From the NCBI RefSeq assembly GCF_023721715.1, contig NZ_JAMDLG010000001.1, positions 62,001-126,000 on the forward strand: a DNA stretch of 64,000 nt, written 5' to 3'. Source of the stretch: Parasegetibacter sp. NRK P23 (GTDB lineage: Bacteria > Bacteroidota > Bacteroidia > Chitinophagales > Chitinophagaceae). Below the pieces are notes generated by a model, which had not been told where the DNA came from, did not search any database, and saw only the letters and a program-made list of their open reading frames with translations. A program made the position numbers and the translations under genes. Below are positions 51,791-57,151 of the stretch, piece after piece (within the stretch, counting starts at the first letter, position 1; each line of letters opens with the position of its first letter).

Positions 51791-53680
51791 TTAAGGCAGG
51801 TTCACCACCAATACCGGCACCTTCAACTCATGCCGCACGGCGTTCACGGTTTCCCCGTAGAGAATGTCTTTAATACCGGAATGCCCGTGCGCCCCAATCA
51901 CCAAAGCGCTCGCATGGTGCAAGTGCACCAGCCTTACGATTTCCCCGGCCCGCATGTTGAAACCGAGTTCGTGTTTCGCTTCCAGTCCCATATTCGTAAA
52001 GCGTTCAGTGTATTGTTGCAGCCTCAGTTCATCTTCCCTCGTTTCATAATCATCCGTAACGGCGCCGTGTATACGCGCAGAAACGCTTTCCACCACGTGA
52101 ATCAGAATGTAAGACGCGTTTTTTCCGCTGCCTAACCCAATAGCATGGGATAATAATTTTTCATCGTTCGAACTGAAATCCAGTGCGATGGCAATACGGT
52201 CATATACCGGTGCCAGTAGCGGCGCTCCATGGGTGGCATCATGTATCTGGATGCTGTTTTCTTTTTTCTTCCTGGAATACATTAACGGGTACACCACGGC
52301 GATCACCAGCAGTACGGCGAAAAGAATGGTGCCCGTAATGGCAAGCGCCTGCATGGGTAAACTCGCATTGCTCTGAACATAATCCCACACCATTTCGATC
52401 ACCATCCGCAGGTTCAGGTATACGAGTACCGCCGTAATGAGCCAGGAGAAAAACTGTGTGAATGGTTTAATGGCGAAACTGCCCATCTTTTTTTTATCGC
52501 TCACGAAATGGATGAGTGGAATGATGGCGAAGCCCAGTTGCAGACTCAGCAGCACCTGGCTGAACACGAGCAGGTTGTCCACTTCATTTTCTCCTGAGAT
52601 AAGGATCACGGCTACTGCGGGACCAATTGCCAGTAAGCGCGTGAGTAACCGCCGCGCCACCGGGTTGATGCGCAACCTCAGGTAGCCTTCCATCACGATC
52701 TGGCCCGCCAGTGTGCCGGTGATGGTGGAGCTTTGTCCTGCGGCGATCAACGCCACGGCGAACAATACCGGCGCTACGCCTGAGCCCAGTAAAGGCGCCA
52801 GCAATTGGTGGGCATCGCGAATCTCGGCCACATCGGTGCGCCCGGTTTTAAAAAACACGGTGGCGGCCAGTACCAGTATCGCCGCGTTCACCAGGAAGGC
52901 CAGGTTAAGCGCAATAGCGCTGTCGATAAAATTCAGTTTGAGGGCCTTTTTAATACCGGCAGGATCTTTCCCGATCTTACGGGTTTGCACCAGCGCCGAA
53001 TGGAGGTAGAGGTTATGGGGCATTACCGTGGCACCAATGATGCCGATGGCGATGTACAGGGCTTTCGTATCCGGAATAGTTGGGATAAGTCCGCCGGCCA
53101 CTTCGCCCAGGTCCGGCTTTGCGAGTATGATCTCGCCAAGAAAGGAGAGCCCGATTACGGCCACGAGTCCGATGATGAAAGCCTCCATTTTCCGGATGCC
53201 CGCTTTCTGCAGGAAGAGCAGCAGAAAAGTGTCGAGCACAGTGATGCTTACGCCCCAGATCAAAGGGAGACCGGTAAGTAACTGGATACCGATGGCCATC
53301 CCCAGCACTTCGGCCAGATCGGTTGCGGCGATGGCGAGTTCCGCCAGGATATAGAAGATAAAGTTCAGTCCTTTCGGGTACATCTCCCTGTTGGCCTGCG
53401 CCAGGTCGCGGCCGCGTACGATGCCCAGCCTTGCGGAAAGACTTTGCAGCACCAGCGCCATGATATTACTCATCAGCAGTACCCATACCAGGGAATAGCC
53501 ATATTGGCTGCCTCCGGCGATATCGGTGGCCCAGTTGCCGGGGTCCATGTAGCCCACGCTTACAAGATAGGCGGGGCCGAAGAAGGCGAATATCTTTCTC
53601 CAGCGGGTTTTGCGTTGGGAGGGGTCAACACTGGCATGTACTTCGCTCAGCGATACATCGTCTTTGGTTCTCTGCATCAT
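51791..53680 (-). CDS. mntH: Nramp-family Mn2+/Fe2+ transporter fused to a Usp domain
   Basis: 629 residues. The N-terminal part (about 30-450) is an Nramp transporter with the metal-site motif DPGNWATD and the helix 6 motif MPHNLYLHSALV. From about 480 to 629 lies a universal stress domain with the ATP-binding motif GAHGHSGIKDILYGE. The start codon overlaps the mntR stop by 4 bp, so the two are cotranscribed. It imports divalent metal with H+. The Usp domain may regulate it; this is inferred. Confidence 0.94.
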   Translation of the reverse strand: MMQRTKDDVSLSEVHASVDPSQRKTRWRKIFAFFGPAYLVSVGYMDPGNWATDIAGGSQYGYSLVWVLLMSNIMALVLQSLSARLGIVRGRDLAQANREMYPKGLNFIFYILAELAIAATDLAEVLGMAIGIQLLTGLPLIWGVSITVLDTFLLLFLQKAGIRKMEAFIIGLVAVIGLSFLGEIILAKPDLGEVAGGLIPTIPDTKALYIAIGIIGATVMPHNLYLHSALVQTRKIGKDPAGIKKALKLNFIDSAIALNLAFLVNAAILVLAATVFFKTGRTDVAEIRDAHQLLAPLLGSGVAPVLFAVALIAAGQSSTITGTLAGQIVMEGYLRLRINPVARRLLTRLLAIGPAVAVILISGENEVDNLLVFSQVLLSLQLGFAIIPLIHFVSDKKKMGSFAIKPFTQFFSWLITAVLVYLNLRMVIEMVWDYVQSNASLPMQALAITGTILFAVLLVIAVVYPLMYSRKKKENSIQIHDATHGAPLLAPVYDRIAIALDFSSNDEKLLSHAIGLGSGKNASYILIHVVESVSARIHGAVTDDYETREDELRLQQYTERFTNMGLEAKHELGFNMRAGEIVRLVHLHHASALVIGAHGHSGIKDILYGETVNAVRHELKVPVLVVNLP

Positions 53681-54333
53681 GTTCTTACGAATAAGTTTCT
53701 CGCCACCTGCTCACTCACGGTAAAAGAGGGGAGGTTGCGTATTTTCACTTCCAGCGAATTGTCGAATCCGAATCTTTTTTTCACTTCCAGCTTTGTACCG
53801 AGTTGAATGCTTTTGTGGGTGAGGAGTTCCAGCATATCGCTGGATTGGTCGCCCACATTACAGATTTCGGCGGAAACGTTGAGGGGGAGGTCCAGCAAAC
53901 TAAGTTGGCAGGTGGTTTCCACGTTGCCTTCTTTGTCGGGGATAGGGTCTCCGTGTGGATCCACTTTTGGAAAACCGAGGTACTCATCAAGCCGGTCCAC
54001 CAGTTTACGGCTGGTCACATGTTCCAGTTCTTCCGCGATTTCGTGTACCTCATCCCAGGTAAATTGTAGTTTCTCTACCAGGAAATACTCCCACAACCGG
54101 TGCCGCCTGATCACGAGCAAAGCAAGCTTACTCCCTTCGCCGGTGAGGCGGAAGCCCTGGTAACGTTCATAATGTACCAGTTTCTTCGCCTTCAGCTTCT
54201 TCATCATATCCGTTACGCTCGCCGGTTTGGTGGCCAGTTCCTGTGCCAGTTCATTCGTGGTAACATTCCCTGCTTCCTGCTGCAGGTGGTAGATCGCTTT
54301 AATGTAATTCTCCTCGCTTACTGAATAATTCAC
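53677..54333 (-). CDS. mntR: DtxR/MntR-family metal-dependent repressor
   Basis: 218 residues. The N-terminal winged helix (VSEENYIKAIYHLQQEAGNVTTNELAQELATKPASVTDMMKKLK, seen as its blocks NYIKAIYHLQ and PASVTDMMKKL) is followed by the dimerisation and metal-binding domain (LWEYFLVEKLQFTWDEVHEIAEELEHV, with the H-x-x-E-x-x-E-H pattern). A C-terminal FeoA/SH3-like domain (about 150-218) completes it. It likely represses mntH when Mn2+ or Fe2+ is sufficient. A palindrome lies 17 bp upstream of its ATG. Confidence 0.93.
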   Translation of the reverse strand: MNYSVSEENYIKAIYHLQQEAGNVTTNELAQELATKPASVTDMMKKLKAKKLVHYERYQGFRLTGEGSKLALLVIRRHRLWEYFLVEKLQFTWDEVHEIAEELEHVTSRKLVDRLDEYLGFPKVDPHGDPIPDKEGNVETTCQLSLLDLPLNVSAEICNVGDQSSDMLELLTHKSIQLGTKLEVKKRFGFDNSLEVKIRNLPSFTVSEQVARNLFVRT

Positions 54334-54493: not shown

Positions 54494-55435
54494 ATGAAAA
54501 ACTGTGCCTGGTTATTAGTGTTCGTTGCGTGGATGGCCATTGGATGTAAGGATAAAAAGAAAAGCCTGTCGGGAGAGGAAGAAATGACCATCTCCGACTT
54601 CATCACTTCTTTCGATGAAAGAGCGCTCCCCTTTAACCTGGAAGATACCTCACTCAATAAAAAGGAGCCGGATTCCCTCAAAATCGGCTATTCGCTTTTC
54701 ACAGGGTTCGTTCCAGATACTATTTTCAGAAAAGAATTCGGCAAAGGTGTGAAACCCACGTTGTTTCCATTGGGGCGAATCAGCGTGAAGGATAAAGAAA
54801 CTTATGTGATGATTAAAGCGGTAACCGCTAAAAGAAGGGCAGCCTACATTCTTGCCTTCAATGAACTCGACAGTTTTGTTACCGCCATGCCCCTGCTTAC
54901 TGGAGAACGTGTTGCCAATACAGGCTTCAGCGCCGCTATCGATAAACGCTACACCATCACGAAAACAAAGCTGCGCCGTCAATCTTCCGGAGAGATGCTT
55001 TACACGAAGGATGCCTACGTTTTCAACAGTGCCGGCGTTTTTACCCTGATACTTACGGAATCTAACGATGTTTCCAAAGTCCAGGAAATGGTGATCAATC
55101 CCATCGATACCTTTCCAGCCAAACACAAATGGGCAGGCGATTACATACAGAATAAGAAAAACTTTGTTTCCGTCCGTGATGGCAGGAACGATAAGGAAGT
55201 CGATTTCTTCATTCATTTCGAAAAATCAGGCGATTGTAATGGTGAACTGAAAGGTACCGCGAAGTTCATCGCCCCCAACATTGCCCAGTTCTCCGAGCCC
55301 GGAGATCCCTGCGTACTTCAACTTAAATTCTCCGGTTCTTCCGTTACGTTAAAAGAAGAAAAAGGCTGCGGCGCTTACCGCGGCATCAAATGTTTCTTCG
55401 AAGGAAGCTACACCCGGAAGAAGAAAAAGAAGTGA
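54494..55435 (+). CDS. hypothetical lipoprotein
   Basis: 313 residues. Lipobox MAIGC (Cys18). The rest is a mostly beta protein with a basic C-terminal tail (RKKKKK). A Cys-rich region near the end (GDCNGELKGTAKFIAPN, GDPCVLQLKFSGS, GCGAYRGIKCFF) is recognisable but I do not know the family. No neighbour gives a function; it stands alone on the plus strand ahead of the GT35-like gene. Confidence 0.7.
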   Translation: MKNCAWLLVFVAWMAIGCKDKKKSLSGEEEMTISDFITSFDERALPFNLEDTSLNKKEPDSLKIGYSLFTGFVPDTIFRKEFGKGVKPTLFPLGRISVKDKETYVMIKAVTAKRRAAYILAFNELDSFVTAMPLLTGERVANTGFSAAIDKRYTITKTKLRRQSSGEMLYTKDAYVFNSAGVFTLILTESNDVSKVQEMVINPIDTFPAKHKWAGDYIQNKKNFVSVRDGRNDKEVDFFIHFEKSGDCNGELKGTAKFIAPNIAQFSEPGDPCVLQLKFSGSSVTLKEEKGCGAYRGIKCFFEGSYTRKKKKK

Positions 55436-55495: not shown

Positions 55496-57151
55496 ATGAG
55501 TTTCAGAAATTACCGCGTTCCCTACACAACAGATGAAAGATATTCTAAAAAGATAGCCTACTTTTCCAGTGAGTTCGCGGTACACCAGCCCCTGAAGATA
55601 TACAGTGGTGGCCTGGGGTTCCTCGCCGGATCGCATCTCCGCAGCGCTTATGAACTGAAGCAGAACATGATCGGCATTGGCATCCTCTGGAAATACGGGT
55701 ATTATGACCAGTCGAGGAACCAGGACCAGACCCTGCAGGTTACCTTCATGGAAAAGCAATACAGTTTCCTGGAAGACACGGGCATCCGTTTCCAGATCAA
55801 CATCCACGACCACCCGGTTTGGGTAAAGGCGTATTACCTGCACCCGGATACTTTTAATACCGCGCCGCTGTTCCTGCTCTCCACGGATTTGCCGGAGAAC
55901 GATTATGTTTCGCAGACCATCACGCACCGTTTGTACGATGCCAACACCGCCACGAAAGTGGCGCAGTACATTCTTTTGGGAGTGGGTGGCGCCAAATTGC
56001 TGGATGAGATCGGCTTCAACCCCGACCTGCACCACCTCAATGAAGCACATGGCCTGCCGGCGGCTTTCTACCTGTACCGCAAGTACTACAACAATATCGA
56101 AGAAGTGCGGAAGCGCCTGGTGTTCACCACACACACACCAGAAGAAGCGGGCAATGAGCGGCACGACATTTACCTCTGCCACAAGATGAGTTATTTCTGT
56201 GGACTGAACATCGAAGAAGTGCGCGCGCTCACCGGTATCAACGACGACCAGTTCAACCATTCGCTCGTGGCGCTGCGCTTCGCGAAGCTGGCCAACGGCG
56301 TATCACAACTGCATGGCAGGGTTTCCCGCGAAATGTGGAGCAAATATCCCGGCATCTGTAACATCATCTCCATTACCAACGCGCAGAACTGGAAATACTG
56401 GGCCGATAAGCAATTGTACCGCGCGGTGGATGAAAGCAACGATTTCATTTTCGACGACCGGAAGCGTTACCTCAAAAAACGCGCGTTCGATATCGTGGCC
56501 GATCAAACCGGAAAACTGTTTAACCCCGATGTATTCACGATTGTATGGGCACGCCGTTTCGCGGGTTATAAACGCGCCGATTTCTTTACAAGAAACGAAG
56601 AACGTTTCCGCGCGTTGATGAACAATACGAAATACCCCGTGCAATTCATCTGGGCCGGAAAGCCTTACCCGCTGGACTATCCCGCGATCGGTGAGTTCAA
56701 CAACCTCGTGCACATCAGCAAGCAATACCGCAATATGGCCGTAGTGATCGGGTATGAACTGAGTTTGTCGAAACGCCTGAAACAGGCCGCAGACTGCTGG
56801 CTGAACAATCCCCGTGTGCCCCGCGAAGCTTCGGGCACAAGTGGTATGACCGCCGCCATGAACGGAGCCGTGAACTTCTCTACGGATGATGGATGGATTC
56901 CGGAATTCATTAACCACGGTAACAATGGTTTCGTGGTGCCCAAGGCCGATTACGCCAATATGCACGTGCAGGAACAGGACCAGTACGACCTGGATAAACT
57001 GTACGAAATACTCGAAAAACAAATACTTCCCCTTTATTACGAAAACAAAGATACCTGGCGCCAGATTTCCAAAAACGGTATGCGCGACGTGCGTTTCCAG
57101 TTCGATTCCAACCGGATGGCACACGAGTATTACGAGCAGTTGTATAAGTAA
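55496..57151 (+). CDS. alpha-glucan phosphorylase-like protein lacking the PLP lysine
   Basis: 551 residues, shorter than classical GT35 enzymes, of the 'alpha-glucan family phosphorylase' type. Recognisable motifs: IAYFSSEFAVHQPLKIYSGG, HHLNEAHG, WARRFAGYKR (the phosphate-binding Arg/Lys region) and PREASGTSGM. At the next position, Lys (the PLP Schiff-base residue of GT35) is replaced by Thr452, read directly from codon ACC at 56849. It may therefore be a non-PLP glycosyltransferase or inactive. It is followed closely by an ABC-F gene. Confidence 0.85.
   Translation: MSFRNYRVPYTTDERYSKKIAYFSSEFAVHQPLKIYSGGLGFLAGSHLRSAYELKQNMIGIGILWKYGYYDQSRNQDQTLQVTFMEKQYSFLEDTGIRFQINIHDHPVWVKAYYLHPDTFNTAPLFLLSTDLPENDYVSQTITHRLYDANTATKVAQYILLGVGGAKLLDEIGFNPDLHHLNEAHGLPAAFYLYRKYYNNIEEVRKRLVFTTHTPEEAGNERHDIYLCHKMSYFCGLNIEEVRALTGINDDQFNHSLVALRFAKLANGVSQLHGRVSREMWSKYPGICNIISITNAQNWKYWADKQLYRAVDESNDFIFDDRKRYLKKRAFDIVADQTGKLFNPDVFTIVWARRFAGYKRADFFTRNEERFRALMNNTKYPVQFIWAGKPYPLDYPAIGEFNNLVHISKQYRNMAVVIGYELSLSKRLKQAADCWLNNPRVPREASGTSGMTAAMNGAVNFSTDDGWIPEFINHGNNGFVVPKADYANMHVQEQDQYDLDKLYEILEKQILPLYYENKDTWRQISKNGMRDVRFQFDSNRMAHEYYEQLYK

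Follow-up and report, generated by a model that had tools for sequence, protein, structure and literature searches.

Passages of two papers describe the acid-base chemistry on the substrate phosphate in phosphorylases as being done by the 5'-phosphate of PLP (PMC11046441, PMC6411801), and one of them presents the linkage of PLP to its lysine as the rule in GT35 (PMC11046441). In the window analyzed here, a stretch of 64,000 nucleotides from Parasegetibacter sp. NRK P23, a GT35 gene encodes threonine at the position of this lysine. This raises the question of whether its product is a decayed phosphorylase, a protein with another cofactor, reaction or role, or an enzyme that works without the tether.

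A GT35 Protein with Threonine at the Cofactor Position

The gene is an ORF running from ATG to stop at positions 55496..57151 of the forward (+) strand, encoding a protein of 551 aa. It scores 430.7 bits against the NCBIfam profile TIGR02094 (alpha-glucan family phosphorylase; cut-off 191.7) and, more weakly, 49.3 bits against Pfam PF00343 (GT35 carbohydrate phosphorylase; gathering score 27), which bears out its first-pass annotation as GT35-like; against TIGR02095 (GT5 glycogen synthase) it reaches 40.5 bits, far below the cut-off of 328.45. The translation contains the phosphate-binding motif RRFAGYKR (residues 353-360; 56552..56575, +) and the motif EASGTSGM (residues 444-451; 56825..56848, +), followed by codon 452 (56849..56851, +), which reads ACC. 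The alignment column of this codon is lysine in all 30 lysine-bearing rows, which lie on the other side of one tree branch, in line with the earlier claim that Thr452 stands in place of the PLP lysine. ACC lies two base changes away from either AAA or AAG, and the threonine is kept in relatives, so the first-pass annotation was also right that this is no single-base error.

The known relatives fall into several forms. The short lysine-bearing TIGR02094 proteins (~560 aa) are represented by Indioceanicola, Microvirga and Criblamydia plasmid genes, and the long TIGR02094 form by GlgP of Segatella copri (PDB 9l6i), the nearest solved structure. With the lysine-bearing TIGR02094 proteins the lysine-less form shares homology over its whole length, the GT-B fold, RRFxxYKR, EASGTSG, the glucose and phosphate contacts and, in two members, a gene island. 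It differs in the absence of the PLP lysine (T/S/A instead), in 21 switched positions, in a new Lys429 and in an identity of only ~28-40% over the best match. Canonical GlgP/MalP of the TIGR02093 type (rabbit muscle, E. coli) carry the GT35 active-site residues in homologous positions, but are about half as long again, have EASGTGNMK with the PLP lysine, and show 23-24% identity where they align. In the same bacterial family, GT3-GT35 fusions (ORFs of 1410 and 1426 aa; locus L168 of genome G033 and locus L159 of G104) also contain a TIGR02094-type GT35 part, but retain the lysine and are fused to a GT3 glycogen synthase. Further ORFs of ~1340-1430 aa were seen in the class sample described below, the GT3 part being tested in G033 and G104 only.

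Conservation and Origin of the Lysine Loss

The first-pass annotation had proposed checking the conservation of the threonine in homologues. Among the first 112 loci (L001-L003 all being the Parasegetibacter gene itself), 112 of 112 matches have Thr at 452, encoded by ACG in 36, ACT in 29, ACC in 24 and ACA in 23; because all four Thr codons are in use, it is the amino acid rather than the DNA that is held. A nearer group, which includes the Parasegetibacter gene, has Thr452 in 129/129 rows (118 distinct over the last 500 residues, the other 11 repeating another row), and a farther, second group of 19 rows, 53-59% identical, has Thr in 14, Ser in three and Ala in two. The Ser or Ala in five members of the second group speaks against a catalytic part for Thr itself in that group. 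Left out of these counts and of the 30 lysine-bearing rows were L001 and L002 (the same Parasegetibacter gene again), L172 (10 bases), L173 (a fragment with lysine), L170, L171 and L176 (long GlgP with lysine, L176 being the same gene as L171), and L174, L175, L177-L180 and L182-L184 (other genes); no further row among L003-L194 was dropped for absence of the motif. The reading of Thr452 as a sequencing error, pseudogene or chance substitution, already at odds with the intact frame and the two base changes from a Lys codon, is refuted by a residue that is the same in 129/129 rows through four different codons, and we give it a negligible chance.

Carriers of the gene are mostly labeled as Chitinophagaceae genera or as unspecific Bacteroidetes (80 named contigs), and two carrier contigs labeled as Williamsia and as a Sphingomonadales metagenome bin are probably mislabelled. 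Further carriers are genomes of the same family and of other families of the class, and the second group was found on plasmids of Pontibacter and Runella, where both members are annotated as glgP. The Schiff-base lysine expected of a PLP-dependent glycogen phosphorylase is thus replaced by T, S or A in 148/148 rows of the subfamily against Lys in 30/30 others, for which reason the lysine loss is old and, in the rows read, fixed in a Bacteroidota subfamily.

The division into groups uses residue 452 itself, and its independent part is the agreement with a tree built with this residue masked. In this quick tree of 81 rows, all lysine-less rows lie on one side of a single branch (SH-aLRT 100; stem length 1.55 changes per column), and one change of state at 452 suffices; the tree program flagged the long row L148, the nearest lysine-bearing relative (37-39%), whose placement is unsure. 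A second tree including GT5 and long GlgP rows again placed the lysine-less rows on one branch, with an SH-aLRT of only 80, and leaves the branching order inside GT35 without resolution. We also considered whether the lysine-less form is ancestral instead of derived, predating the use of PLP, and disfavor this: the lysine-bearing form agrees with long GlgP against the lysine-less form in 32 columns, and 14 columns point the opposite way. These column counts favor, without proving, a derived loss.

Active-Site Positions Kept and Switched

As a reference we took the 107 positions conserved in at least 93% of the 30 lysine-bearing rows. More than 90% of the 148 lysine-less rows keep 71 of these positions, and 36 are not kept to this degree. 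The statement of the first-pass annotation that all other hallmarks are present therefore stands for the 71 and fails for the 36, among which 21 are switched throughout, with the lysine-bearing residue in fewer than 10% of both lysine-less groups: D46S, L63, G78Q, Q80, P93, D129S, G149, E158, D221, F223H, M255H, L258, G296A, H298N, W320, G350, A390P, K452T, L464, W468I and W479 (replacing residue given for examples). The kept positions include 38-41 (GGLG), 213, 295, 302, 353, 354, 358, 359, 420, 444 and 446-450. Within RRFAGYKR, columns 353, 354 and 358-360 are kept in the lysine-less rows, with K at 353 in roughly one in four farther rows.

We take H213, N295, W302 and Y420 to be the equivalents of His377, Asn484, Trp491 and Tyr648 in the rabbit enzyme, R353/R354/Y358/K359 those of Lys568/Arg569/Tyr573/Lys574, and E444/S446/G447/T448 those of Glu672/Ser674/Gly675/Thr676. 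In rabbit phosphorylase, the positions just listed contact glucose, the substrate phosphate and the PLP phosphate. The glucose His and Asn, the Arg/Lys phosphate pair and the Glu/Ser/Gly/Thr of EASGT are accordingly all present (columns 213, 295, 354, 359, 444 and 446-448), in the roles that they have in phosphorylases. With 71 positions kept and 21 switched in both groups, the site has not decayed, nor has it stayed as it was, and the 21 joint switches could reflect a different reaction just as well as a different grip on the cofactor.

Constraint on the whole protein points the same way with regard to decay. Compared with five genomes of the family, the Parasegetibacter protein is 69-79% identical, against 58-66% for GlgA, 67-76% for GlgC and, in four of the five genomes, 66-73% for GlgB (the GlgB of G123 falls outside the stretch compared); in G108, GlgC is slightly more conserved than the lysine-less protein. 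Such tight conservation would be surprising in a non-functional relic, and since the protein is conserved about like GlgC and GlgB, decay appears unlikely and the earlier suggestion of an inactive form is disfavoured. The same evidence weighs on the idea that the protein binds glucan without catalysis, be it as the regulator suggested in the first-pass annotation or as a chaperone or scaffold, with glycogen synthase or branching enzyme as its partner. This would agree with the loss of the cofactor lysine, with the co-presence of glycogen synthases, and with the drift away from phosphorylase models (best PF00343 E-value 9e-20, vs. 9e-37 for lysine-bearing proteins). However, R354, K359 and T448 are retained in the rows examined, none of which glucan binding alone needs, and the identity between genera exceeds that of GlgA and is close to the values for GlgB and GlgC, so we regard such a non-catalytic role as unlikely.

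A New Invariant Lysine at Position 429

Besides losing one lysine, the subfamily has another. Lys429 (codon AAA, 56780..56782, +) is lysine in 148/148 rows lacking Lys452 (129/129 nearer, 19/19 farther), and the same column holds no lysine in the 30 lysine-bearing rows (V in 22, T in four, I in four) or in seven GT5 and three long GlgP rows, where it is Y. It sits in the helix after Y420, one helix turn past the residue that we take to be equivalent to rabbit Ala653, and its gain falls on the same tree branch as the loss of Lys452. Lys429 is our best candidate, judging by the alignment, either as a second anchor or as a residue newly contacting phosphate. A PLP phosphorylase whose Schiff-base lysine has moved to Lys429 would explain both its invariance in the lysine-less rows and its absence from lysine-bearing, GT5 and long GlgP rows, as well as its origin on the branch where Lys452 was lost. 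But this is a single event on a long branch where much else changed as well, which gives the coincidence little weight, and we consider a relocated Schiff base quite improbable.

Likeness to Nucleotide-Sugar Enzymes

GT5 glycogen synthases (GlgA) share with the lysine-less form the GT-B fold, the GGLG loop, the R/K phosphate pair and the lack of a lysine at the 452 position, at an identity of ~17%. A rival reading, in keeping with the other donor suggested in the first-pass annotation, makes the lysine-less form a nucleotide-sugar-dependent alpha-glucan glycosyltransferase, newly evolved or by reversion, in which the base and ribose of ADP- or UDP-glucose would occupy the room of PLP, and R354 and K359 would hold the diphosphate as in glycogen synthases. 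A review proposes that GT35 originated by the opposite exchange, with PLP replacing a nucleoside monophosphate (PMC11046441).

The tests of this likeness disagree, the Pfam contrast speaking for it and the columns, identities and profile comparison not. In the Pfam contrast (E up to 0.1; 30 lysine-less vs. 30 lysine-bearing proteins), the GT5 model PF08323 matches 24 vs. two, PF00534 14 vs. none and PF13692 13 vs. none, but when scanned singly, four out of five lysine-less proteins fall under the PF08323 cut-off. There is a local resemblance to GT5 at G419 and S425 (GYELxLS vs. GYNExLSH), and the GT5 rows compared carry no lysine at 452; against this, in a symmetric column test the lysine-less form sides with GT5 against the lysine-bearing form in 12 columns, and the lysine-bearing form against the lysine-less one in 19 (two vs. 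five with a stricter consensus), the mean identity to GT5 is 17.3% for lysine-less and 17.8% for lysine-bearing proteins, and profile comparison with GT5 scores 26.1 vs. 23.1, both with hhalign probability <2%. The predicted fold is equally near to both sides: an AlphaFold2 model of the lysine-less protein, of moderate confidence (pLDDT 74.7, several active-site loops under 50), has 9l6i (Z 26.9) and the GT5 starch synthase 3vue (Z 26.0) as tied fold neighbors, and Foldseek with the predicted model ranks 9l6i first; absence of a family from such a neighbor list excludes nothing. Finally, most genomes tested already have a GT5 or GT3 glycogen synthase. We thus find a nucleotide-sugar transferase doubtful, and judge similarly the broader idea of a GT35 branch that swapped PLP for a nucleotide, be it as a cofactor of phosphorolysis or in such a transferase. 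If true, it would reverse the step from nucleoside monophosphate to PLP proposed for the origin of GT35.

Glycogen Genes and Gene Neighborhoods

In the Parasegetibacter genome, GlgA adjoins GlgC and GlgB is on another contig; a search of this genome found no other GT35 match, leaving the lysine-less protein as the sole GT35 found. Of 147 family genomes, 107 contain the short form (identity of 53% or more; residue 452 read only where the locus was fetched), nine a lysine-type or long GT35 (G009, G033, G054, G061, G075, G104, G108, G143 and G144; lysine read in all except G009), and five both kinds (G009, G054, G075, G108 and G144). GlgA (GT5, E <1e-40) is present in 110 of the 147: 105 genomes have GlgA and the short form, five GlgA only, two the form only, and 35 neither. 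We dropped this co-occurrence (Fisher p 5e-26) as proof of function, because in a SecA tree covering 110 of these genomes a single clade holds 30 of the 31 double negatives, the remaining one being G092 (of the 37 genomes outside the tree, 11 lacked a SecA match above the threshold and 26 were not fetched). No test of GlgA co-occurrence reaches significance on this tree, where the independent-pairs test has only four pairs, and the link to glycogen at the family level is weak, resting on few independent events. Branching enzyme exceeds the cut-off in 114 of the 147 genomes, some of them without GlgA.

In a sample of 198 genomes from the class, 17 contain the lysine-less form (residue 452 not read in G530, G602 and G630) and 15 of these also a glycogen synthase, which is a full GT5 in eight and a GT3 in seven others; neither type was found in form-bearing G219 and G253. 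GT5 without the lysine-less form occurs in 12 of the other 181 genomes, and GT3 was looked for in 31 chosen genomes, which provide no GT3 base rate. This pattern would be consistent with a part in glycogen metabolism alongside either type of synthase.

Two side observations concern the synthases. Loci L120, L121 and L123 (from G253, G219 and G334, all of one genus) hold Thr452 members of the nearer group with neither a GT5 nor a GT3 synthase found. Further, many of the genomes sampled, including some where full GlgA is absent, have an ORF of ~275 aa that matches only the N-terminal half of GlgA (e.g., G080:C143:43951-44649); a conserved GlgA-GT5 fragment in Bacteroidetes is mentioned in a passage of PMC11046441.

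A lipoprotein-like ORF (54494..55435, +) ends 60 bases before the GT35 ORF on the same strand, and its family is present in 104 of 147 loci (L001-L003, the Parasegetibacter gene itself, included), immediately preceding the GT35 gene in 102. It has no Pfam match and was not seen next to the lysine-less gene in loci of families beyond the Chitinophagaceae type, so that a shared operon with this lipoprotein was set aside as a functional clue. A scan for promoters and terminators gave sites no more numerous than in shuffled sequences. Elsewhere in the window, an ORF at 51791-53680 (- strand, 629 aa) encodes an Nramp metal transporter (PF01566) with a universal stress protein domain (PF00582) fused to its C-terminus, each scoring above its cut-off, and adjoins a Fe/Mn-dependent repressor ORF (53677-54333).

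In the second group, the member on the Pontibacter plasmid adjoins genes for a type II GAPDH and a DUF1622 protein, and the L145 locus carries phosphoketolase. Lysine-bearing glgP genes have, in different loci, type II GAPDH with phosphoglucomutase, phosphoketolase (two loci, one of the long form) or GlgX as neighbors. This shared type of island is no more than a hint that the lysine-less form fills the role of lysine-bearing glgP; the likeness is limited to two of the 19 second-group members, and none was seen for the others, Runella included, nor in the nearer group. The lysine-less gene is directly followed by a PF12900 gene (pyridoxamine 5'-phosphate oxidase-like) in L186 (7642-8082, on the Runella plasmid) and L137 (3145-3585), which count as one case because their GT35 genes are near-identical.

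A Phosphorylase with an Untethered Cofactor?

The first-pass annotation held that without PLP the classical mechanism cannot operate, but losing the Schiff-base lysine is not the same as losing PLP: the 5'-phosphate does the chemistry, and Lys429 is a candidate anchor. The Schiff base of phosphorylase can be reduced with much activity retained, and phosphorylase reconstituted with pyridoxal has reportedly been studied with phosphate analogues, going by the title of a work cited in PMC6411801. Because the acid-base chemistry belongs to the PLP 5'-phosphate and the enzyme with a reduced Schiff base stays active, the tether is in principle dispensable, and with the phosphate-binding residues retained, an untethered phosphate-bearing cofactor is the simplest reading.

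We therefore prefer, tentatively and at somewhat less than even chances, an active alpha-glucan enzyme in the role of GlgP whose phosphate-bearing cofactor is not tethered at 452, all functional steps of which we infer. A GT35 phosphorylase of the TIGR02094 type would have lost its PLP-tethering lysine once, before a Bacteroidota subfamily diversified, and the members of this subfamily would be conserved, working alpha-glucan enzymes at the GlgP position of glycogen metabolism. They would likely catalyze alpha-1,4-glucan + Pi = glucose-1-phosphate, the second phosphate coming from a cofactor that is not covalently held, either non-covalent PLP or a different small phosphorylated compound that occupies its pocket.

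The sequence family itself (TIGR02094/GT35) is known, and what appears to be new is a conserved branch without its defining lysine, of which we found no description in the literature searched, a scope that left out most subscription journals. As this subfamily is often the sole GT35 of a genome that makes glycogen, either the PLP tether is dispensable, or the cofactor has been exchanged, or a set of annotated GlgPs are not phosphorylases. The subfamily may thus serve as a natural experiment on what phosphorylase needs PLP for and on the proposal that the family arose by exchanging a nucleotide for PLP; it is also relevant to glycogen use in these bacteria.
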